The position numbers were made by a program, and so were the translations under genes. DNA of 36,854 nt from Verrucomicrobiota bacterium. Lineage in GTDB: Bacteria; Verrucomicrobiota; Verrucomicrobiia; Limisphaerales; JACQFS01. This document shows, in pieces, positions 4,659-36,647 of the stretch. The notes beneath the pieces were generated by a model that had not been told where the DNA came from, searched no databases, and saw only the letters and a program-made list of their open reading frames with translations. The stretch spans positions 1 through 36,854 of the forward strand of contig JACQFS010000091.1 in assembly GCA_016199935.1 (NCBI GenBank), given 5' to 3'. Position 1 is the first letter of the stretch. Every line of letters begins with the position of its first letter.

Positions 4659-6713
4659 ATGCGGGCCGTGCGGGAAGCTTCACTCGAAAACAACCGGCTG
4701 ACTGACCGTTCAGCCCAGCAGGAGTTCGGTTTCCGTTCCCCGGTGGACCTGGGGAACGCCATCCGCCGTTCGCAGGAGTATTTGTTTTCCGAACAGAAAC
4801 CGGACGGCTACTGGGTCGGCGAGTTGATCGTGGACTCGACGCTCGTCTCGGACATGCTGGCCTTCTACCACTGGTGGGGCAAGGTGGACAAAGCTTGGGA
4901 GCGCAAGGCGGTGCATCACCTCTTCTCGATGCAGTTGCCCGATGGCGGCTGGAACATTTACCACGGCGGGCCATCCGAAGTGAACGCCACGATCAAGGCC
5001 TACCTCGCGCTCAAGCTCGCCGGCGTGCCGGCCACCGACCGCCGGATGCTCAAGGCCCGCGAGGTCGCGCGCGCCCACGGCGGCGTGCCGCGCATGAACA
5101 CCTTCTCCAAACTCTACCTCGCGCTGCTCGGCCTCGCGGAATGGCGGCACGTGCCGACAATTCCGTCCGAGGTGCTGCTGATCGGCAAATGGTTCCACGT
5201 GAATTTCTGGGACATGAGCAACTGGTCGCGTGCGATGATCGTGCCACTGGCGATCATCAACCACTTCCGCCCCACGCGCCCGCTGCGCAACGGCGTGAAC
5301 CTCGACGAGTTGTATCCGCACGGGAAACACGAACTGAATGAGTCGTTCAAGCCGCGCTACTTCGATTTTAGCCTCCGGAACATGTTTCTCTGGCTCGACA
5401 AGCTGCACAAGCTGGCCGAGTGGTTCGCGCGGCACGGCATCCATCCGTTCCGCCGCCGCGCGCTCAAGCGCGCTGAGCAATGGATGCTCGAACGCTTCGA
5501 GGGTTCCGGCTGACTCGCCGCCATTTTTCCCGCGATGCTCAACTCGCTCATCGCACTCATCGCGCTCGGCTATCCCGATGACCATCCCGAAGTCGTCCGC
5601 GCGCATCGCGAACTCCTCAAGCTCCAGCACGAGACTGCGGACAGCGTGCGCATCGAACCGTGTTTCTCGCCGGTGTGGGACACGGCCATCGTCACCATCG
5701 CCATGGCCGAGTCCGGCGTGCCGGCGGACCATCCGGCGCTCAAGCGCGGAGTCGAGTGGATGATGGCGAAAGAAATCCGCTTCAAGGGCGACTGGATTCA
5801 CAAAAACCCCGCGAAGGTCGAGCCGAGCGGCTGGGTTTTTGAATACGACAACAAATGGAATCCCGACGTGGACGACACGGCGATGGTGCTGCTCGCCTTG
5901 CGCAAGGTGCGCACGGACGACGCCAAGAAACGCGCCGAGTGTTTCAACCGCGGCCTGAAGTGGATGATGACCTTCCAGTGCAAGGACGGCGGCTGGGCCG
6001 CGTTCGACCGGGACTGCACGAAAGGCATTCTCGAAAAAGTTCCGTTTGCCGACCACAACGCGATGCTCGATCCCGAATGCGCCGACATCACCGCGCGCAT
6101 CCTCGAACTGCTCGGTTACGAAAAGTGGAACCTCGACGACCCGCAGGTCCAGCGTGCCATCGCCTACGTGCGCTCGAACCAGGAGGCCGACGGCTCATGG
6201 TATGGCCGCTGGGGCGTGAACTACATTTATGGCACGTGGCAGGTCCTGCGCGGGATGCACGCGCTCGGCCTCGACATGAATCAGGCGTGGCTCCGGCGCG
6301 GCGGCCAGTGGCTCGAGTTCGTCCAACTCGCCGATGGCGGCTGGGGCGAACGCTGCAACACTTACGACGACCCCGTGTTCAAGGGTCAGGGCCCGAGCAC
6401 CGCGTCGCAAACCGCGTGGGCCGTGATGGGCCTGTGCGCCTTCGATGATCCTTACAATCCCGCGCTCGTCCGCGGCGTGAAGTATCTCATCTCGAAGCAA
6501 AATGCCGACGGCTCTTGGAGCGAGGACGAGATCACTGGCACCGGATTCCCGTGCGTGTTCTATCTGAAATACGACATGTATCGGAACAGTTGGCCGCTGC
6601 TCGCGCTGGCCACCTACCGCAACCTGCTGGAGAAACACATCGCGCAGGGCAACGGCCACCTCAAGGAAGAGGAGCCGCGCGAAGAACCGCGCCCCGCCGT
6701 GATCGGCGGATGA
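4659..6713 (+). pseudogene. shc: Squalene-hopene cyclase, interrupted by one in-frame TGA
   Basis: Full-length cyclase frame of about 684 codons. The enzyme folds squalene into hopene, the core step of hopanoid synthesis, as a monotopic membrane protein. The catalytic DxDD motif is D403-V-D405-D406 in NPDVDDTAM. Several QW motifs are seen (LPDGGWNIY, CKDGGWAAF, EADGSWYGRWG, LADGGWGERC, NADGSW). Codon 285 (5511-5513) is TGA in RFEGSG-TGA-LAAIFPAM. The frame is unchanged on both sides, and homologues from memory read S-D-G-L-x-A-I here. GGA to TGA would be a single G-to-T. The two halves alone lack either the N-terminal barrel or the DxDD half, so no half should be active. It is followed by hpnG 37 bp later, probably in one operon. 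Confidence 0.93.
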
Positions 6714-14089: not shown

Positions 14090-17000
14090 TCAGGGCTTGG
14101 CGACCCGCACCCGATACGAGCGATTGGTCAGCGCGCTGATCGGCACGGTGTCGCGCACCGAAAGATTGGTCGGCGTGTTGATCTGCGTCAGCATCCCCGC
14201 GCCGGACCAGACGAGCGGATTGGTCAACGGCCCCGTCCACAGCACGGTGTATTGCACGTCGGTGGCGTTCACGTTTTTGGGAACGTCCACGCGGAAGTAG
14301 AGCGCGCCGGCGACATTCGTCACGCTGAAGACATAGGGCGCGACGTTGGCCTGATTGGGATTGGTCCCGGATCCATACTCGGCGAGGTTCGGCAGTCCAT
14401 CGCCATCCGGATCGGCCCCCGGCGCCGCGAGCGCATTGCTGCTGCCGCCGACGAAGTTGGTGAACTGCCACGCGGCGAACGGACTGGTGAAGACGTTGAC
14501 ACTGAGGTCGCCAAAAGTTTCCGCGCTGCCGTCATCGGCGCGCAGCCGCAGCCGGTAGGTTCCATCCGCGCTGAAGGTCGCGGTGGTGTCCACGTTGGTG
14601 GCGTTGCCAAACACCACCGGCGCCGCGCCGCCCACCGAACTCCACAGGGTGGTCAAGGCGGGCGGCGTGGGGAAATTATCGTCCGTCACGGTGGCGTTGA
14701 GCGCGGTGGAGATCATGACATTCGTCGCCACCGTGCCCGGGTCCACGATGGGCGCATTGTTCAGCGGCACGATGCCGAGGTTGCTGAACGTGACGGTGTT
14801 CAGGCCCACGCCCGAGGCGTTGTTCACGTGGAAGCCCACGATCACCGGCGTGGTCATGATGACGGTCTGCGGCTGGCCGAGTTGTGCCCAGGTCCCGGGC
14901 GCGTTGGCCACGTCGGGCGCGTGAAACGCCGTCACGGAATTTCCCTTGCGGATGATCCGAATCCAGCGCGTCGCCGCAGTGAAGCTGGGCACACCGCCGC
15001 TGCCGCCGCCGGCGATGGATTGCCAGAAATAGCCGTTGTAGGCGCTGGTGGGAATGCGGCCCACCTGCACGTAGGCGCCGCTGTCCATGCTCTCGCGGAT
15101 GCGGATGCCCGAGGTCGCCGAGCCCGCGCCCGACGTGGCGTTGGCGTGTTTCACCGTGACCATCATGTCGCCGTTGAACTGCCAGCCGTAAAAAATTCCC
15201 GAGGCGCTGCCGGCGATGGTGTAAATGCCGTTGGTCTCGGACCACGAGCCGGGCTGCGTCGGCGTGAGGCTCGCTTCCTCCGCGATCAACGCCGGGCCGA
15301 CCGGCGCGGGCGTGAGCGTCACGTTGTCGAACACGGCCGTCGCGGTGTTGGTGGCGCTGTTCGCCGTGGTGGTGAAGCCGAGGCTCGCGCGCGTGTCGAG
15401 ATTGGTGAACGTGGTCGCCCCGATCACCGTCCACGCGCCGGGCGCGCCCGCGACATCCGGCGCGAAGGCGGCGGTGATCAAATTGCTCGCGACAGTGCGG
15501 TCGAGTTTCAGCCAGACGGGCAACGTCACGCCCGCGTTCGTGACGGCGAGGTCGTTCGCGCTGACGTTCGTGCGCGTGCGGAATTGCAGCCCCACGCCGG
15601 GCACATAGCCGAGCACCGCGCGCGTGGCCCCGCGTTGCAACAAACTCCGAACGGTCAGGCCCGCGAGCGGCGCGGGCGCATTCGAGACGCTGTTGAGTCG
15701 CGCCACGAGACTCGCATCACCCTCGACCTGCCGGACGAGGACGTGCGCCGTGTCCGTCGTGGTGGCCGCGTAGCCCGTGCCGGTGCCGCTGACGGTGAAG
15801 ACGCCGTTGTTCACCAGTCCCTCGCCGCGCCGCGCGGACGACGGCGACATATCTTGCGCCACCCAATCCGCCGCGACGATCGCCGGCCCCACCGCCACCG
15901 TCGCCTGGTCACTGACGGTGAATTGCCCGTCCGTCGCCGTGATGCGCAGGACGTAAGTGCCGTTGGTGCTGAAAGTGACCGCGCTGTTCGTGTTGGTGGG
16001 CGTTTCAAACGTGGCGATGCCCGGCCCCGCAACCTGACTCCACTGGACCGTCACTGGCTGCGGTGCGCCGTCGTCGGTGACGGTCGCGGTGACGATGAGT
16101 CCGTTGCTCGACGCGACGAGCGGCCCTTGCGCCGAGGGGCTCGAAATGAAAAGCACCGGCGGGTTGTCGTTGTCGGCGATGGTGACGTTGTCGAACGAAT
16201 TGGTCCCGATGTCGTAGCTCCCGGCCGCGAGGGAAATCGTCACCTGCTCCGGCCCCTCGGTGATCGAATCATCAATCGGCAGGATGTTGATGGTCTTCGC
16301 CGACTCACCGATGGCGAAGACCACGGTCGAGGCGATGTTGGAATAATCCACGCCATTGCTCGCCGTGCCGGAGATGGTGAGGTTCACCGTGAGCGTGACG
16401 TTGGTGGGCATCGTGCGCGTGACGGTGAACTGGCCGGGATTGCCCGGCGTCTCGGACGCGTTCGGAATGTTCGCGACGATGTTCACCGTGCTGCGGTCGT
16501 CGTCGGCGATGGTGACGGTCGCGTTGCTCGGCGTGCCGACGACGTAAGCCGCGTTCGACGCGATGGTGAGGATCACGGTTTCCGCACCTTCATTGATCGC
16601 ATCCTGAATGGGGATGACGTTCGTCGAGCCGCTGGACGCGTCGGCGAGGATCGTGAACGACGCCGTGATCGCGACAAAATCCGTGCCGCTGGTCGCCGTG
16701 CCGCTGCGCGTGAGGGAGACGACGAGGTTGCTCGTCGTCGGGCCGGTGCGGCTGATCGTGAACTGCCCGGGATCGAGCCCGGCCTCCGACGCATTCGGAT
16801 CGGTGGCGACGATGGTTACGACCGGCAGGTCGTCGTCCAAAATGGTGAGTGTGTGGTTCGTGAGGTTGCCGAGCGTCACGCCGACGGGGTTGGACAAGGC
16901 GATCACCACCGTCTCGTTGGTCTCGATGATCGAGTCGTTGATGATCGTCACGGGAATCACCTTCACGCTTTCGCCGGCCGCGAAGTTCAGCGTCCCGGCC

Positions 17001-20000
17001 GGCAGATCGAAATCCACGCCGCCATTGGTCGCCGAGCCGCCGGTCACCGCGTAATCCACCGAGATCGCGGCCGGCGCGGGCGCGCTGAGGCTCACGAAGA
17101 TTCCCGCCGTGCCCGCGCTTTCGAGCACGACGCTGTTCGAGGCCGCGAAGGCCACGAGGGGATTCGTGGCGGCCAGGTCGTCATCAATGATCGTGTAGCC
17201 GTGAATGTTCGCAGTGGAGGAAACCGCCGCGCCGTTCGCGTTGGCGAGCAGGATGGTGATGAGGTTGTTCGGCTCGCGGACGTTGTCGTTCACCACGGTG
17301 AACGTGATGTTTTTGTTCGTCTCGCCCGGGGCGAAGGTCAGCAGGCCGGGCGCGAGGGTGTAGTCCACGCCCGTGCCGAAGGCCGTGGTGGCCGACTGCG
17401 CGCGATACTGCTGCTCGACGCTGCCGTTGTTGATGAAGCCCGCATACATCTGCCGCGCGTAATGCGTGCGGTCCTGCCGCATCATCACGCCGGCCTGCGC
17501 CGTCGCCGCGCCGCCGCTGAGCGTGACGACGCGGCCGACCAGCGTGAAATCGCCGCTCACCTCGGTCCCCGTCAGGTGCGCCTCGTCGTTGGCGTTGCCG
17601 ATGCCGTTGCCGGAGCCGTTCACGGTCCACACGCCGTTGGTGAAACTTTCGGAGCCGTCCACGTTCACGAAGCCCACCTCGCGTCCCCGCAGCGGGCCCG
17701 CGGGCGACGGCGTGAGGCTCACGTTGTCGAAGGTCGCCGTCGCGATGTTGCCGTCGGATTTTGCCGAGACGGCAAGGCCGGCGATCACCGTCGGGCCGAG
17801 CGCGATGTTTTGATTCGTCGCGCCGAGACTCGTCCAGTTCGTGCCCTCCTTCGACGAGTAGGTGCGGAACGAATCGCCGATGCGCTCGAGCTTGAACCAC
17901 ATCGGCAGGATTTGCGTCGTCACCGCCGTCTGCGCGGCGGACGAACCGTTCAGCGTGGTGCGATAGCCCGCGAGGAATCCGCCCGTGCCGTTCGCCAACG
18001 TCGCGGCGTAGATCGCGCCCTGATTGTTGGTGTCGGCGCGGAACATCACGCCCACGCGCGCGTTGCCCGCGTTCGTCCCGAGCGCGACGAGCCGCGCGGT
18101 GACGGTGCAGTTGCTGGAGTTCGTCACGGGCTGATAAACGAAACGGAAATTATCCGAGGTCGAGGCGCCGAGCACGCCGCTGCCGGCATTGGTGAACGAA
18201 TACACGCCGGCCGCGACGCCGTTGGTGCCGCCGGACGCGTTGCCGAGATTCACCGCGCTCTCCGCGCCCATCGTGCCGCCGGCCGCGAGACCGGTGATGG
18301 AAAAATTGTCGAGCGTGGCGGTGTTCGTGGTCGCCGATCCCGACGCGACCACGAGGCCGGCGTAGAAAGTGTTGGTCGGCAGGTTGGCATTGGTGATCGG
18401 CCCGCCGCGTTGCAGCCAGTTCGTGCCGTCGGTGGACTCGAAGAAAGTCATCACGAAACCCGCGCGCACCAACCGCACCCAATACGGCAGCGACTGCGCC
18501 GCGACGGTGGTCGCCGTGCCTGACGCCGTGGCGCCACTCACCGCATACTCGACCGTCACCGGCGCGGCGGACGTGGCGGAGAGCGTGACGGGAATGTTCA
18601 CCGTGGTGTTGGTCTCGCTGCCGGAGGAACTCGGCGTCGGGAACGCGACGGTCAAAGTCGCCGCGTTGGTGTCCGCGATATACATCGTGGTGCCCGGCCC
18701 GCGCGAATACGCGCCGGGGGCGAAGCTGAAGTTGATCGTCTCCGTTCCCTCGAAGAGCGCGTCGGACAGGACGGCGATCGGAAGGTCCGCACCGAGCGCG
18801 CCGGCGGGAATGGTGAGCACGCCATTGCTCGTGGCGTTGGTGAACGTGAGCGTGGCCGAGGTGGTGACGCTGTAATCCGTCCCGGGCGTCGCCGTGCCGG
18901 CGAGGTTGAAATTGACGTTAAGCGCGCCCGCGGTGGAGCCGGTGCGGGAAATGTAGAACTTCACCGGCGAAGTCGCCGCGCCCTCGGTGATGGTCACGCT
19001 GCCGCTCGTGCCGACCTGCGTGTCGGCATAGACCGTCGGCTGGTCGTCGTCGCGCAACCACATCGTGGCCGCCCTGGTCGCCGCAAAGGTGGTGTAGTTC
19101 GTGTTCGTCGTGATCGTCAGCGTGATCGTCTCCAGGTCTTCGAGCAGCGCGTCATTGATCGGCGTGACCGTGATGCTCGCCGTAACGGTCGCCCCGCTGG
19201 CCAGCGTGATATTGTTCGAGCCGGTGAGCGTGTTGGTGTCGAGGCCGGAGATCGTGTAATCCACGCCCGCCGTGGCCGTGCCGCTGATCGAGTAAAAAAC
19301 CGTGAGCGTGCCGGCGTTGGTGCCGCCGCGGACAGTGATGCGAAAATTTCCCGCGGTCGAAGGTTCGGAGGCGCTGGCAGTGTTGACCACGTCCACATAA
19401 GGCACGTCGTTCGTGCTGTCGTTGATCGTCACCGTCGCCGAACTCGGCGAGCCGACCACGTAGCTCGTCGAGCCGGAGCCGAGCGAGAGCACCGCCGTCT
19501 CCTGGCCTTCGCCGAAGCCGTCGTAGCGCGGAATGATCGTCACGCTGGCGTTCGACGCGCCGGCGGGAATCACCAGCACGCCCGGCAGCGCGTCGTAGTC
19601 CACGCCGTGCAGCGCCGTCACCCCGCTGTTCGGCGTTCCGGTCATGGCGTAGTAAACCGTGAGCGGATTCGAGATGTCCCCGGTGCGCGTGATGACATAC
19701 GTGCCGGTGTCGGCGACGGCACCCGGCTGCGTGAGATCCACTTCGCGCGCGAAGGGATCGGTCGCGACGACCGTGACCGTCTGCACATCGTCATCGATGA
19801 TGTTCACGGTCGCGTTGCTCGCGAGCGGGTCAATGAGGTAAGTCGCGTTCGTCAGCGTGGTGAGCTTCACGGTTTCCAGCGGCTCGGAAACCGAATCATC
19901 AATCGGCATCACGTTCACCACCGCCGAGGTCGCGCCGACGGAGAAGACCACGCTGCCGCTCAACGCCACGTAGTCGCTGCCGCTCGTCGCCGTGCCGCCG

Positions 20001-22933
20001 ACCGTGTAGTTGACCGTGAGGTTCGAGGCCGTCGAGCCGGTGCGCACGTAGGTGAACACGGCGGGCTGGCCGCTGTTTTCCATCGTATCAGTCACCGTCG
20101 CGGTGAGCGAAATTTTCGGGAGCGCCGTGTCGTCGTCATCAATCACCACGGTGGCGGAGGATTGCGGCCCGACGAGGTAGCCGTTGCCGGGGCCGAGTTG
20201 GAGAATCACCGTCTCCGGTCCTTCCTGAATCGTGTCCACGATCGGCGTGACGGTGATGTCGAGCGTCGCCGAGTCCGCGAGGATCGTGAAGTTGCTGAAG
20301 CCCTGCGAGCCCGGGACGTAGTCGGGCGTGAAGGTGTAATCGGTGTTCCGCGTGGCGCTGCCGAGCGCGGTGTTCACGTTCACCACGAGGTCCTGGCTGA
20401 TGTCGCCTGTGCGCGTGATGGTGAAGCGTCCGACATTCGTCACGGAGGCTTCATTCGCGTTCGGGATCGTCGCCGCGATGGTCACTACCGGCAGCGCGGC
20501 GGCCTCGAAGTTGGCGCCATCGAAATTCGGCGCGACGGTCACGCTGTTGTTGAACAGCTCGCCGAACGTGTAGCCGTAGAGCAGCGGCGTGATGGTGTAG
20601 GTGCTGTTCGTCAGGTTCGGGACGGTGAAGTAGCCATCGGCGTCGGTGACCACGCCGTTCACGCCATTCGCGGTGACGGCCGCGTCCGGCAACCCCTGCC
20701 CCAGCAGCGTGACGCGGCCGCTGATGGTGGAGCGGCCGTTGCCGTTGCCCACGGTGATGAGCTGGTTGCGCGTGGCGGTGCCGCCCTTCATGTCGCTCGC
20801 GGTGCAGGTCACGACGTAGGTGCCGGCATTGGTGAAAGTGCGCGTGATGATAGGCGCATTGGGCGAGACGATTTTCACGTTCGCATCGCCGAAGTGCTGC
20901 CACGCGTAAGCCAGCGTGTCACCGTCCGGATCGCTCGCCGTGGCCGTGAAGGTGACCGTGGCCCCGACCGGCACCACGTCCGCGGAGGCGGAGAGCGAAA
21001 GCGTGGGCGGATGATTGGAAGGGAACTGCCCGAAGTTCACCACCACGTCCATGTAGCGGGGTGAGTCGCTCGCCGTGATCGTGGTCAGGTGGATGCCGCT
21101 CTCAAAATCCGAGAACGTGTTCCCCAGCGAAATGGGCGCGTCCTCCTTGGCGAACGGCGAACCCGGCGTGGTGTCAATGAGCTGGAGGTTGTTGCCCGAG
21201 CCGCCGGGGTAACGCCAGCCGAGCAGCATTCCGTTTTTCACCCACGGATTGGAATCGAAGAGCGAGCGCACTTCGCCCCAGTAGGTTTTTTGCGAATCCT
21301 TCACGACCGTCATCGCGTAGCGGCGCGCCGGATCGAGCACCGCCTGATCCATTGCGTAAATCCGATACACGCCGCTCTGCGTGACGTTCTGAACGTAGTT
21401 CGACGGCAGCCATTTGATTTGGTTCTTGGCCTGCGCGTTGTAGTGGCCGGTCGCGCCGCCGCCGCCCATGATGTCGTAGCTGTCGCCGTATTCCTGATTC
21501 GCGCCCGCGCCGATCGAACTGGTGCCCGCCGTGTCCCAAAAATTCGCGTGCGCCAGGCCGAAGCAATGCCCGATCTCGTGCGCCCAAAGCGTCATGGCGT
21601 CGCTGCGCGCCCAGACGCTGCTGCCGCCGCCAAGCCCGCCATAACTGCCCGGGCCGCCGTTGTGGCGGACGACCACGCAGTCGTAATCGTTCGAGTCGAA
21701 GCCGAGCTTGCGCGCCTCGTCGCGCGCCTCCTGATGCTCGACGCTCGTGCCGCTGATGTCGCCGCCGTTGGAGGTGTCGCGGTTCACATACCAGGCCTCG
21801 TTGTGCTTGAGCTTCACCGGCGGCGTGACGACGCCGACGAGCGTGAGTCGGCCGAACGACGCCTTCGCATAAAAATCTCCGACGTCGCGCAGGGTCGAAT
21901 ACAGCGTCGCCTCCGTGCTCGGCACCGCGTTCTGGTCCGCGTAAGTCATCGGGATCGCCAGCACCTTCACAATGCCGAGCGCCGGCGTCGGTGCCGCGGG
22001 CAGGATGCCGGTGAAGCCGAAGGTTCCGCCCGACACGCCCTCGCCCATGATGAGCGTCTGCCTGTAGAGATCAATGTGCGCGCCACCGCAGAAATAAACG
22101 ATCTCCGTCGCCGTCTCCACCGCGGGCGTCTGGTCCGTGATCGTCTCACCCGGCTGCAAATTTCCGCCTTCGGTTTTGTTGCCCGACACCGGGCAGAGCG
22201 TCACGGCGGGTTTCGCCGTCGTCGGCACTTCGCCGGCCTCGAGGCGACGCAGCGGATCTTCATTCACGGCGAATTCGGAATCAATCGCCACGCCATTGAG
22301 CGAAGCCCCCGGCGTCCAAGTCACCGTTTGCTCCCGGCGTCCATAAACGTAGGCGCGATACGTGCGGCCACCCTTGAACTCCGCTTCACGAAAGGTCAGC
22401 GATCTTGCCGGCCGCGGCTCGCCTTCAAGCGGAACGCCCTGGTAAACGCGCAGCACCGCCACGCCGTTCACGCGCTCCTCGAGTTCGGCGACCACGCTCG
22501 CGGGCAATTGCTGCCGCGCCGCCACCGGCACCGACTGCCGCAATGCCTCGCGCGGATTCGCGGCGATGAGCGCTTTCATTTCGGAACGACGCGCGGCGGC
22601 CAACCGCACACCCTCCGCTTCGATCGCCGAGCGCGCAGCCGGATCGGCATCGAGATACCCGGTCATCCAATCCTGGAATTTTCCCGTCGCCGAATCGGAG
22701 GACGCGGAAGGCGCGGCGACAGACGACGACCCGCCAACGGAAGCGGCGCGCGAGTTTTTTTTTGCAAGCGCAACCACCTGCTGCACCGGCGCGGTCCCGC
22801 CCGCGCTCGGAGTCGGCAAGCGAGAGCGCTCAGTCGATTCGACCGGCGGCGCACTCCGCTTCAAAAAGAAAAGCCCCACACCCGCGACAATCGCGAGCAC
22901 GGCTGAAATGTGGCGGACTAGTTTTCGGTCCAT
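14090..22933 (-). CDS. Giant secreted metzincin-like protein with PKD, Calx-beta and laminin-G/DUF1349-like domains
   Basis: 2947 residues. A hydrophobic export/anchor segment lies at about 8-25 (ISAVLAIVAGVGLFFL). The protease domain (about 320-600) has zinc motif HEIGHCFGLAH, ligands H452, H456 and H462, catalytic E453, and a Met-turn at M489 (YDIMGGGG). A PKD domain (about 640-728) and a carboxypeptidase-regulatory-like domain (about 731-791) follow. About ten Calx-beta modules run from 815 to about 2280; one is split by a 380-residue insert. Then come PKD-like and concanavalin/DUF1349-like domains, a Ca-binding DPDGDGLPNLAEYG loop near 2837, and a C-terminal domain typical of verrucomicrobial secreted proteins. 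It probably acts at the surface on proteins or glycoconjugates. The start at 22933 gives MDRKLVRHISAV; the frame extends to 23002 with no signal-like sequence. Confidence 0.88.
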   Translation of the reverse strand: MDRKLVRHISAVLAIVAGVGLFFLKRSAPPVESTERSRLPTPSAGGTAPVQQVVALAKKNSRAASVGGSSSVAAPSASSDSATGKFQDWMTGYLDADPAARSAIEAEGVRLAAARRSEMKALIAANPREALRQSVPVAARQQLPASVVAELEERVNGVAVLRVYQGVPLEGEPRPARSLTFREAEFKGGRTYRAYVYGRREQTVTWTPGASLNGVAIDSEFAVNEDPLRRLEAGEVPTTAKPAVTLCPVSGNKTEGGNLQPGETITDQTPAVETATEIVYFCGGAHIDLYRQTLIMGEGVSGGTFGFTGILPAAPTPALGIVKVLAIPMTYADQNAVPSTEATLYSTLRDVGDFYAKASFGRLTLVGVVTPPVKLKHNEAWYVNRDTSNGGDISGTSVEHQEARDEARKLGFDSNDYDCVVVRHNGGPGSYGGLGGGSSVWARSDAMTLWAHEIGHCFGLAHANFWDTAGTSSIGAGANQEYGDSYDIMGGGGATGHYNAQAKNQIKWLPSNYVQNVTQSGVYRIYAMDQAVLDPARRYAMTVVKDSQKTYWGEVRSLFDSNPWVKNGMLLGWRYPGGSGNNLQLIDTTPGSPFAKEDAPISLGNTFSDFESGIHLTTITASDSPRYMDVVVNFGQFPSNHPPTLSLSASADVVPVGATVTFTATASDPDGDTLAYAWQHFGDANVKIVSPNAPIITRTFTNAGTYVVTCTASDMKGGTATRNQLITVGNGNGRSTISGRVTLLGQGLPDAAVTANGVNGVVTDADGYFTVPNLTNSTYTITPLLYGYTFGELFNNSVTVAPNFDGANFEAAALPVVTIAATIPNANEASVTNVGRFTITRTGDISQDLVVNVNTALGSATRNTDYTFTPDYVPGSQGFSNFTILADSATLDITVTPIVDTIQEGPETVILQLGPGNGYLVGPQSSATVVIDDDDTALPKISLTATVTDTMENSGQPAVFTYVRTGSTASNLTVNYTVGGTATSGSDYVALSGSVVFSVGATSAVVNVMPIDDSVSEPLETVKLTTLTNATYLIDPLASNATVNIIDDDVQTVTVVATDPFAREVDLTQPGAVADTGTYVITRTGDISNPLTVYYAMTGTPNSGVTALHGVDYDALPGVLVIPAGASNASVTIIPRYDGFGEGQETAVLSLGSGSTSYVVGSPSSATVTINDSTNDVPYVDVVNTASASEPSTAGNFRITVRGGTNAGTLTVFYSISGTATAGVDYTISGLDTNTLTGSNNITLASGATVTASITVTPINDALLEDLETITLTITTNTNYTTFAATRAATMWLRDDDQPTVYADTQVGTSGSVTITEGAATSPVKFYISRTGSTAGALNVNFNLAGTATPGTDYSVTTSATLTFTNATSNGVLTIPAGALGADLPIAVLSDALFEGTETINFSFAPGAYSRGPGTTMYIADTNAATLTVAFPTPSSSGSETNTTVNIPVTLSATSAAPVTVEYAVSGATASGTATTVAAQSLPYWVRLVRAGFVMTFFESTDGTNWLQRGGPITNANLPTNTFYAGLVVASGSATTNTATLDNFSITGLAAGGTMGAESAVNLGNASGGTNGVAAGVYSFTNAGSGVLGASTSDNFRFVYQPVTNSSNCTVTARLVALGTNAGNARVGVMFRADTNNQGAIYAATLANGTGGFLAGYRTTLNGSSAAQTAVTTQILPMWFKLERIGDSFRTYSSKEGTNWTSLGATNQNIALGPTVIAGLAVSAKSDGNIATATFDNVSLTPSPAGPLRGREVGFVNVDGSESFTNGVWTVNGSGNGIGNANDEAHLTGTEVSGDFTLVGRVVTLSGGAATAQAGVMMRQDRTHYARQMYAGFINNGSVEQQYRAQSATTAFGTGVDYTLAPGLLTFAPGETNKNITFTVVNDNVREPNNLITILLANANGAAVSSTANIHGYTIIDDDLAATNPLVAFAASNSVVLESAGTAGIFVSLSAPAPAAISVDYAVTGGSATNGGVDFDLPAGTLNFAAGESVKVIPVTIINDSIIETNETVVIALSNPVGVTLGNLTNHTLTILDDDLPVVTIVATDPNASEAGLDPGQFTISRTGPTTSNLVVSLTRSGTATSGTDFVAITASFTILADASSGSTNVIPIQDAINEGAETVILTIASNAAYVVGTPSNATVTIADDDRSTVNIVANIPNASETPGNPGQFTVTRTMPTNVTLTVNLTISGTASNGVDYSNIASTVVFAIGESAKTINILPIDDSITEGPEQVTISLAAGSYDIGTNSFDNVTIADNDNPPVLFISSPSAQGPLVASSNGLIVTATVTDDGAPQPVTVQWSQVAGPGIATFETPTNTNSAVTFSTNGTYVLRITATDGQFTVSDQATVAVGPAIVAADWVAQDMSPSSARRGEGLVNNGVFTVSGTGTGYAATTTDTAHVLVRQVEGDASLVARLNSVSNAPAPLAGLTVRSLLQRGATRAVLGYVPGVGLQFRTRTNVSANDLAVTNAGVTLPVWLKLDRTVASNLITAAFAPDVAGAPGAWTVIGATTFTNLDTRASLGFTTTANSATNTATAVFDNVTLTPAPVGPALIAEEASLTPTQPGSWSETNGIYTIAGSASGIFYGWQFNGDMMVTVKHANATSGAGSATSGIRIRESMDSGAYVQVGRIPTSAYNGYFWQSIAGGGSGGVPSFTAATRWIRIIRKGNSVTAFHAPDVANAPGTWAQLGQPQTVIMTTPVIVGFHVNNASGVGLNTVTFSNLGIVPLNNAPIVDPGTVATNVMISTALNATVTDDNFPTPPALTTLWSSVGGAAPVVFGNATNVDTTATFSADGTYRLRLRADDGSAETFGDLSVNVFTSPFAAWQFTNFVGGSSNALAAPGADPDGDGLPNLAEYGSGTNPNQANVAPYVFSVTNVAGALYFRVDVPKNVNATDVQYTVLWTGPLTNPLVWSGAGMLTQINTPTNLSVRDTVPISALTNRSYRVRVAKP

Positions 22934-22940
22934 CTCGAGT

Positions 22941-22960
22941 GGCGGAGGCCGGGCTCCGCC
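22941..22960. promoter_or_regulatory. GC hairpin just before the giant protein gene
   Basis: GGCGGAG at 22941-22947 pairs with CTCCGCC at 22954-22960 around a 6-nt loop. On the minus strand the stem ends 7 nt before the ATG at 22933. The only purine-rich ribosome-binding candidates (GGAG) lie in the stem, so it could restrict translation initiation. An overlapping GGCCGG/CCGGCC pairing (22947-22952 with 22972-22977) offers an alternative fold. It may instead be part of a dispersed repeat. Confidence 0.4.
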
Positions 22961-23077
22961 AACAGCGGTGGCCGGCCTCAGGGTCGCCAACAGTATCCAC
23001 AAAAGCGGCCCGTTGGCTAGGCGGTAATGAACCCTCGCCGGTCAGATGGTGAATTCAGGCGTTCCCCTCCGGGCGCC

Positions 23078-25621: not shown

Positions 25622-25688
25622 AAAAAACAATTCCTTCCGACCGCATGACTTCGGTTGGAGCAATCTTCAGCAGCTGTCATATCTTCCC

Positions 25689-25714
25689 ATCAAGATGCCT
25701 TGATTTATCATTTT
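25689..25714 (+). promoter_or_regulatory. Hairpin plus T-rich tail in the metH leader
   Basis: ATCAAG (25689-25694) and CTTGAT (25699-25704) form a perfect 6-bp stem with loop ATGC. TTATCATTTT follows, and the metH ATG is 22 nt downstream. The shape is that of a weak terminator or attenuator. No sensing aptamer was recognised upstream. Confidence 0.3.
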
Positions 25715-25736
25715 ACCTCTGCCACCTTCCCCGCCG

Positions 25737-29609
<3,873 letters not shown>

Positions 29610-33994: not shown

Positions 33995-36647
33995 TCAGGT
34001 CGCGGCGGCTTTCCGGGTGCGCCTGGCTTTGCCGGTGGGCGCGAGGGGGGCGGTGAGTTGTTCGTAGAGTTGGAAGAGGTATTCCACGCGGGCGCGGTCG
34101 CTGGGGAAATCGGCGGGGCGGTAGCAGCGGTCCACGGCCTTGTCCAACGCGGCGTGGGCGGCGGCGAGGGCGGGCGGCATGGCCAGCGGGTCGTAGAGGT
34201 CCGCCAGCGTGGCGCCGGGGAATTGCGCCCGCGCGTCCAGCACCCGCTGCGCCGCCTTCTCCACCGCCGAACGCTGAACCGCCGTCGGCGTCGCGGGCCA
34301 GGGGTAGTTGTTGTAAACGATCGTGTTGGAATACTGGTAACGCGACTCCAAGCGTCCGCAGGTCTGGCGCATCCACGCCATGTGCATGGACGAGGAAAGA
34401 ATACCGAAGTGATAAATGGTCGCGTCGGGAACAACGAGCGAGCTTCCGTTAGCGACAATGCTCTTGGGTAGGAAGCCAAGAGGAATGTAGAGGCGACGCT
34501 CGGACGAGACTTTTGGGAACAGAAGATAGTCGCTCGAAGGCTGGCGATCTTCTCCAACTGCCGCAGGAATCTTCGCCAACTCGACTGTTGGGGCTTTCTT
34601 GCTCGCCGCGCGAAACGCGCGAACCCGCTCGATTCGTTCCATCACTGGAGGGCAGGCTCGCAAGTCAGCCGGATTCGCATCGGTAAGCCAAAGCACCCAG
34701 CGTTCGCCACCATTCAGGAACTCTTCGCCGCCAATGTAGGGCCGGATGTAGCGAGCGATGCCGGGGTAGTCCCGCCGGAGTGTCGCGCGTTCAGCCGCGT
34801 CCAAAACAAAGTGCCCGTCGTCCACGAGCTTCGTGCCAAAGACCATCGGCGGCACATCCGCGATGGGCGAGGTGCGTCTCGTCGCGACGGTGTCGTTTCC
34901 CTCGATGAGATAGGGGGAGATGTTCCGGACGACGGAGACGGCAGGATTGAGCGGGTCATGGTCGTAATCGTAGAGCCTCTTCTCCGGCACGTCGCCGAGT
35001 CCGAAGCCGATGATCACGCAATGCACATGTGCTCTTCCTCTGGCCTCGCTCTCCCAAGGAAACGTGCGGTGAGCAAAGTGAATCTTCACATGATAGCGAG
35101 AAAGCAGATTGCTCCAGAGAACGCTCACCTGCTCGCCTTGAGTGATGGAGTTCGTCGAGACGAAGGCGACTCTGGCCGCAGTGCCTTGAATGTATTCCGC
35201 TGCGAGGCGATGCCAGCAAGTGACGAAGTCGAGGACGCCTGCACCTTGCACTTTGCCCCAGACGGCATCCATGTCCGCCTTCTGTGCTGGGTCTTGCTCC
35301 TTCTTTCCCACGAACGGCGGATTGCCGAGGACGTAGCTGCATTGGGCGGGCGGGAGGACTTGCTTCCAGTCCTTGCGCAGCGCGTTGGCCACGTGGATGT
35401 GCGGGCTTTTGCGCAGCGGTATGCGCAGGTAGTTCTGCGTGAAGAGCAGGCCCAGCGCGACGTTCGCCTGATGGTCGGTGAGCCACAGCGCCGTCTCCGC
35501 AATGCGCGCCGGGAATTCCTCGATCTCGATGCCGAACATCTGGTCCACGTCCAGCAGGGAGAGCTTGTTCACGTCGGCGAGCGTCATCTCCTGCTGCCCG
35601 CCGTGGAGCGCGGCGAGGATTTCCAGTTCCAGCGCGCGCAGTTCGCGGTAGGTGATGACGAGGAAGTTGCCGCAGCCGCACGCGGGGTCGAGGAAGCGCA
35701 GCGCGGCGAGTTTCTTTTGCAGTTCGGTCAGACGCTGCGCCCGGCCGATCTTGAGCTTCTTGGCGCGGTCGAACTCGGCGCGGAGGTCGTCGAGGAACAG
35801 GGAGCGGACGACCTTGAGGATGTTGCGCTCGGCGGTGTAGTGCGCGCCAATCTGCCGGTTTCTGGCGGCGCTCGGGCGGGGTGTTGAGCACCTCGAACAG
35901 TTCGTGGAGCTTGGGGCCGAGGTCGGAGCCATCGGCGGCGGTGTGGTCCTCCAGATAGAACTGGAAGGACTTGGTGGCGAAGATGCCGTTGTCCTCGGCG
36001 AACAGGCAGAAGAGCAGGCGGACGAGGAATTGTTTCAGCTCGTGCCCGGCGTGGCCCGTGGCGTCGGTGCCGTATTCGCCGGCCTCCAAGGCGTCGTGCA
36101 GGTCGCACATGAGGCGCGTGGCTTCCTCGTTGGCGGGGTCTTCGGGGTTGAGCTTGTGCTGCCGGTAACCCGCCATGAAGAAGAAGTGGCGGATTTGCTT
36201 GTGGAAATCGGCGAGCGGAAACTCGAAGGAGGGCGGGAGGCGCTGAAAGAGCGGCGCGTCGGGGTCCTGCTCGGGTTCGAGGTCGTGAATGGCGATGCGC
36301 TGGAAGTCCGAGACGATGAGGTAGCGCGGGACTTCCTTGCCGCGCCCGCTGTCCACGAGGCCGCGGATATATTCCATGCCCTGCGCGTGGGCTTTGCCGA
36401 GGTCTTCACCCGCGCTCTTGTGCTCGGCGAGCAGCACCTTGGGCCAGAAGAGATCAATGAAGCCCCAGTTGCCGGAGAGTTTCCGCACCGGCTCCTCGTA
36501 GCTGGCGACGTGGCGGCGCTGCTGGCCGAAGACGTGGAAGAAAGCGTCCCAGAAAGATTTCGCCTCGGCCTCCTCGCGCGTCTCGTCCTTCCACTCCTTC
36601 GAGAAGGCGATGGCGCGGTGTTTGATTTCGTTCCAGGAGAGCGGCAC
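33995..36647 (-). pseudogene. MmeI-like (type IIL/IIG) restriction-modification enzyme with an internal deletion/frameshift
   Basis: The N-terminal part (MPLSWNEIKHRAIAFSKEW...) carries a PD-(D/E)xK nuclease motif with the MmeI spacing, D65-x9-E75-x-K77, in FIDLFWPKVLLAEHK. A helical linker (LVRLLFCLFAEDNGIF) follows, then LNTPPERRQK. There the frame breaks near 35875. In the next frame come IGAHYTAERNILK, methyltransferase motif I DPACGCGNFL, catalytic NPPF in VLGNPPFVGKKEQ, a target-recognition region and the family ending YNNYPWPATP ... LADLYDPLAMPP. In MmeI, as I recall it, about 60-65 residues separate NTPE from GAHYT; here they are missing. So the lesion looks like a deletion of roughly 190 nt, not a one-base slip. 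Activity is unlikely. Confidence 0.82.

Follow-up and report, generated by a model that had tools for sequence, protein, structure and literature searches.

A widely conserved, circularly permuted DUF1349-like insert nested in a Calx-beta module of predicted secreted M6-like metalloproteases

The split module and its host gene

How does a Calx-beta module come to be broken in its middle by several hundred residues of another domain type, and is the break a recent scar or part of an inherited design? The question is raised by a giant gene in the window (the whole 36,854-nucleotide stretch of DNA analysed here, from a 5.03-Mb Verrucomicrobiota genome in 260 contigs). Its ORF (14090..23002, minus strand) starts with TTG, comprises 2970 codons and is open along its full length; an ATG first occurs at 22933, just ahead of a signal/anchor-like stretch. 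The product is a predicted secreted M6-like metalloprotease with a Calx-beta array. Its N-terminal end consists of the anchor-like stretch, the M6-like peptidase and PKD and carboxypeptidase-regulatory-like domains, followed by nine Calx-beta modules, a further PKD domain, two DUF1349-like domains in ordinary tandem order (E1 and E2, 14759..15865, minus strand) and a C-terminal tail. The peptidase domain carries the zinc motif HEIGHCFGLAH (21548..21580, minus strand), which fits the HExxHxxGxxH pattern of M6-like metallopeptidases. All matches to M6, M66 and M10 profiles fall under the curated cut-offs, and since TIGR03296 scores only 42.7 bits against a cut-off of 110.8, we name the peptidase no more precisely than M6-like. 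The Calx-beta assignment is far firmer, with PF03160 matching nine stretches at 267 bits (cut-off 27; E = 1.6e-80 for the array).

Modules 1-5 (18665..20491) and 7-9 (16166..17161), all on the minus strand, are matched by the profile. Module 6, as delimited by alignments of the joined module, breaks off after aa 1494 (N-terminal part 18521..18661, minus strand, aa 1448-1494) and picks up at aa 1876 (C-terminal part 17177..17377, minus strand, aa 1876-1942). The intervening insert, window 17378-18520, measures 1143 bp and adds 381 codons in frame. The sequence-only reading had described such a break and resumption of one module, and the alignments bear it out: when joined, the flanks align without gaps to intact modules in two relatives (L070, 49% over 118 aa; L215, 40% over 113 aa), and a module tree groups the joined module with module 5 of relatives and with module 7 from the insert-bearing proteins themselves (clade support 0.998). 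By sequence, then, the joined halves make up a Calx-beta module, and module 7 is an intact neighbour of the same type in the same protein. Both halves retain the module consensus, and the insertion point aligns to the GTANAGSDY stretch of NCX1, which we take to be a loop between strands. The two Calx-beta halves most likely pair across the insert.

Several genes elsewhere in the window are not intact. A squalene-hopene cyclase (4659-6713, plus strand) is divided into two ORFs, 4659-5513 for the N part and 5535-6713 for the C part. An MmeI-like restriction-modification protein (33995-36647, minus strand) lies in two overlapping frames, with the N part and spacer in 34956-36647 and the methyltransferase to C-terminal part in 33995-35932, reflecting either a frameshift or an assembly error. 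The MetH methionine synthase ORF (26565-29609, plus strand) holds only the end of the S-methyltransferase domain, and a domain search of the ORF upstream of it (25655-26581) found none.

The insert carries DUF1349-like domains in permuted order

We searched the insert with a profile of DUF1349-like (concanavalin/laminin-G-like) domains made from 77 sequences, all of them outside the insert-bearing subfamily. It recovered, in order, profile positions 103-175 (50 bits), 9-176 (125 bits) and 2-100 (67 bits), that is, exactly the succession of C-half, whole domain and N-half proposed from the letters alone. Re-joining the outer halves, end to beginning, restores a second whole domain as had been claimed, with one full-length match (2-175, 115 bits). 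The best score among 200 shuffled inserts was 6.5 bits, and the permuted order is real and far above chance.

The pieces, all on the minus strand, are a C-half (C1, 18275..18520, aa 1495-1576, profile 103-175), a complete domain (D2, composed of N1 and C2, 17690..18274, aa 1577-1771) and an N-half (N2, 17381..17689, aa 1772-1874, profile 2-100). D2, the middle copy, is identified by the outside profile, by a fold match to 3o12 and by PF07081, which scores 49.3 bits on the insert alone (curated cut-off 32.4). A C-half followed by an N-half, nested in a host domain, is the arrangement of the swaposin type, and five genes have it in a one-unit form. A PDB sequence search with the middle copy gave no relative, and neither did a search of viral contigs.

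Age of the interruption and its uninterrupted counterpart

Within the source order, the search found only one further gene, in genome G002, with the module split at the identical place by a single C-half plus N-half and a peptidase part ~60% identical to that of the window. This orthologue is interrupted by contig ends, its N part closing contig C3 (L043) and the remainder opening contig C90 (L089). An even draw from the phylum then yielded G479 (one unit) and G553, G518 and G509 (two units), and searching by family raised the count to 43 genes, including the window gene, with the same architecture at the same site. Two units are present in 38 of these and one unit in five, and the insert-bearing genes span at least three bacterial families. 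In two genomes (G741, L186/L187; G740, L203/L204) two insert-bearing paralogues lie ~14 kb apart. The window gene itself sits among genes of another order's family (f69), with 75% peptidase identity to G712 and with G759 and G726 as its nearest tree rows; this nesting suggests transfer between orders.

The same site and the same order of pieces in 42 other genes at low identity imply that the event is old. To judge from these relatives, the interruption goes back a long way and has been inherited as part of the protein's design; it is no mark left by a recent insertion. The same genes bear on whether the architecture might be a chimera of metagenome assembly, a suspicion that could be fed by the 260 contigs of the genome and the broken genes nearby. 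Identical junctions in 42 genes from other genomes and a giant ORF that is open throughout make that explanation practically negligible.

The 43 genes had been picked by their permuted unit, and f69 was hence also searched with the peptidase alone, blind to the insert. Matches of at least 48% identity were insert-bearing genes apart from G713, G738 and G733, the first two being partial genes that match the insert query and were read only in part, the third a fragment. A divergent insert-bearing gene, G745b, has 45% peptidase identity. A separate group in f69, at about 38-45% peptidase identity and with ORFs mostly near 2000-2270 aa, has module 6 uninterrupted in all ten genes fetched, and eight of the ten carry just one DUF1349-like domain, close to the C-terminal end. 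The intact counterpart recurs in more distant members of the family (L070, with the 49% over 118 aa given above). The sequence-only reading had suggested looking among orthologues for an uninterrupted Calx-beta module, and by these alignments a sister subfamily has the site without the insert.

Origin of the insert

We suggest, as the probable reading, that this nested-domain architecture was inherited from an ancestor in which a linear piece of a tandem array was copied into the loop of module 6. In the ancestor of the secreted M6-like/Calx-beta subfamily, linear coding DNA for tandem DUF1349 domains would have been copied into the sixth Calx-beta module, the acceptor being the loop with the GTAxxGxDY motif, probably through a template switch or ectopic recombination. 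With its start halfway through one domain and its end halfway through a later DUF1349 copy, the copied stretch would have produced a circularly permuted DUF1349 unit (C-half, linker, N-half) forming a side branch on the Calx-beta stalk. Two units may have arisen at once or through later tandem duplication, and some lineages would have returned to one unit through deletion. The halves most likely pair in such a way that each belongs to a complete sandwich. We infer the linear mechanism and the source array, as we do the folding and the ligand-presenting role discussed below.

The sequence-only reading had instead proposed that a DNA circle bearing two copies of DUF1349 had entered the Calx-beta module by recombination at the heptamer GGCACGG. 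The order of the pieces fits such an event, being by itself compatible with a circular intermediate, and GGCACGG is indeed present at both junctions. As a signature of the junctions, however, it does not hold: there are 12 copies in the coding sequence, every one in frame, and several encode the G-T of the Calx-beta GTA/GTG motif. The longest word common to the junction stretches of the window, at 7 bases, is equalled in 21% of random comparisons, and in other genes the longest shared word is 4-10 bases, mostly at chance level across 42 genes. Because of the 12 copies and the 21% chance match, the heptamer says nothing on mechanism; the same two observations rule it out as a target duplication. 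Moreover, an event older than such deep divergence would not have left a surviving DNA footprint. No circle is needed, since a linear piece that both starts and ends mid-domain within a tandem array gives the observed order without an extra step, and such arrays exist: ordinary-order DUF1349-like pairs occur as E1-E2 in the window protein and in many relatives. We therefore regard the circle as very unlikely.

Copying from a linear array could have drawn on the same gene. The insert domains and the E1/E2 domains of the same proteins form a clade with a support of 0.88 in the profile-based alignment and 0.50 in an independent alignment with more rows, and because of this disagreement we treat a same-gene donor as a lead and not as a result. 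A donor composed specifically of the C-half of E1 and the N-half of E2 was considered and found unsupported, as E1 groups with E2 and the insert units with each other.

Unit number, folding and pairing

In a gene tree built without the insert, and with a root not fixed by an outgroup, the one-unit genes form two groups nested among the two-unit genes, requiring two changes that are forced by well supported branches. The two-unit state thus looks ancestral, and the parsimonious reading is that one unit was lost at least twice. Trees of the half-domains separate C1, N1, N2/N0, C2/C0, E1 and E2 as distinct old classes with few stray rows, and the mean identity within each half class between genes is 43-53%. 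The C-half of one-unit genes is C2-like over most of its length, with a start that is ambiguous or C1-like, as expected from recombination between C1 and C2. Their N-half is clearly N2 in G709 and less clear in the other four genes.

A structure prediction of the insert region had been proposed as a check. AlphaFold with a single sequence gave a useless model (pLDDT 34), and with 11 sequences a weak one (pLDDT 58) whose alignment spans the middle copy only; MAFFT misplaced the alignments that added other Calx modules or the E1-E2 pair, and these were left out of the folding. In this pLDDT 58 model the middle copy matches 3o12 (Z 17.9, rmsd 2.7, 175 aligned) and 3mep (Z 17.5, rmsd 2.8, 168 aligned), and a predicted concanavalin-like sandwich fold can be assigned to the middle copy only. 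The predicted break falls in a strand-free stretch (residues 249-267 of the same model) between domain strands. Given the coverage of its alignment, the model does not decide how C1, N1, C2 and N2 pair.

The fold could be one of serial permuted domains, (C1+N1)(C2+N2), instead of C1 and N2 closing around an intact N1+C2, with the same origin possible in both cases. What the one-unit genes retain is essentially C2+N2, which fits the deletion of a single C+N unit, and the internal domains of potato type II (Pot II) proteinase inhibitors take the permuted form (PMC2259423). The weak AlphaFold model nevertheless builds an intact middle copy (Z 17.9 to 3o12), albeit from an alignment of the middle copy only, and the loop from N1 to C2 looks ordinary; we consider the serial fold a real possibility that is nonetheless less probable than its converse. 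The halves might also be unpaired relics, in which case neither the Calx-beta module nor the outer halves of DUF1349 would still fold. This is improbable, given that the halves are still recognisable at the identities quoted above, that the junctions stay put over many lineages and that both Calx halves keep the module consensus.

Further inserts in the same loop

In about 18 of the 43 genes a second Calx-beta module, number 4 or 5, is split. The break lies at the same profile position and holds an insert of about 240-280 residues, for example at ORF aa 1240-1487 in L188 (G726) and at aa 1370-1648 in L190 (G712b). The window gene lacks this second split. Seven of these genes had their inserts read, which consist of repeats like WxxQxSGTTxxLRxVWGxxxxxVWAVGDxGTILK, for which a Pfam search found no family and which may be propeller-like. 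As modules 4 and 5 are affected in different genes, the GTAxxGxDY loop took inserts more than once. A broader scheme, in which this loop is a general acceptor in the protease family where repeat arrays were planted several times (permuted DUF1349 units and, independently, the propeller-like repeats) and the two-unit form consists of serial permuted sandwiches on a Calx-beta stalk, is tentative and less likely than not.

Relation to known systems and implications

The closest parallels are swaposin and the Pot II inhibitors. Swaposin is, like the present insert, a permuted domain nested inside an unrelated host domain. We know of no such insert in a Calx-beta module, and a limited literature search for Calx-beta modules with a domain insertion found none. 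The order of swaposin, the permuted saposin unit of plant aspartic proteases (plant-specific insert), has been explained by descent from tandem saposin copies (PMC3320104). Swaposin differs in being built of saposin helices and in occurring in plants, whereas here one or two units of a concanavalin-like sandwich are found in bacteria. Pot II inhibitors are similar in that the half-repeats at either end of a tandem series come together as one non-contiguous domain enclosing the internal ones (PMC2259423), but those ~50-residue cysteine-rich units are not nested in another domain. Both elements, permutation from a tandem array and closure by the terminal halves, are thus already known; as far as the same limited literature search goes, the two do not seem to have been described together in a Calx-beta host that has one-unit and two-unit forms. 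As to the individual domains, the middle copy matches PF07081 and its modelled fold the DUF1349 structures 3o12 and 3mep; the known structures are single, unpermuted domains. The array matches PF03160, and intact module 7 aligns to the NCX1 chains (CBD1/CBD2), but module 6 carries a 381-residue insert at the GTANAGSDY position.

DUF1349-like, concanavalin-like domains are placed as a side branch on the stalk and again near the C terminus. We suggest that the secreted protease most likely presents ligand-binding surfaces on a predicted Ca-binding Calx-beta stalk; the modelled fold also resembles CBM66, and the ligands are therefore plausibly glycans.

These genes are a natural bacterial example, widely conserved, of one domain sitting in circularly permuted form inside another. 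Because one-unit, two-unit and uninterrupted forms survive, a tree can put the steps of permutation by duplication in order, and those steps are open to laboratory tests. The genes also indicate that one Calx-beta loop tolerates insertions of very large size, a property of use in protein design and in the correct interpretation of giant surface proteins.
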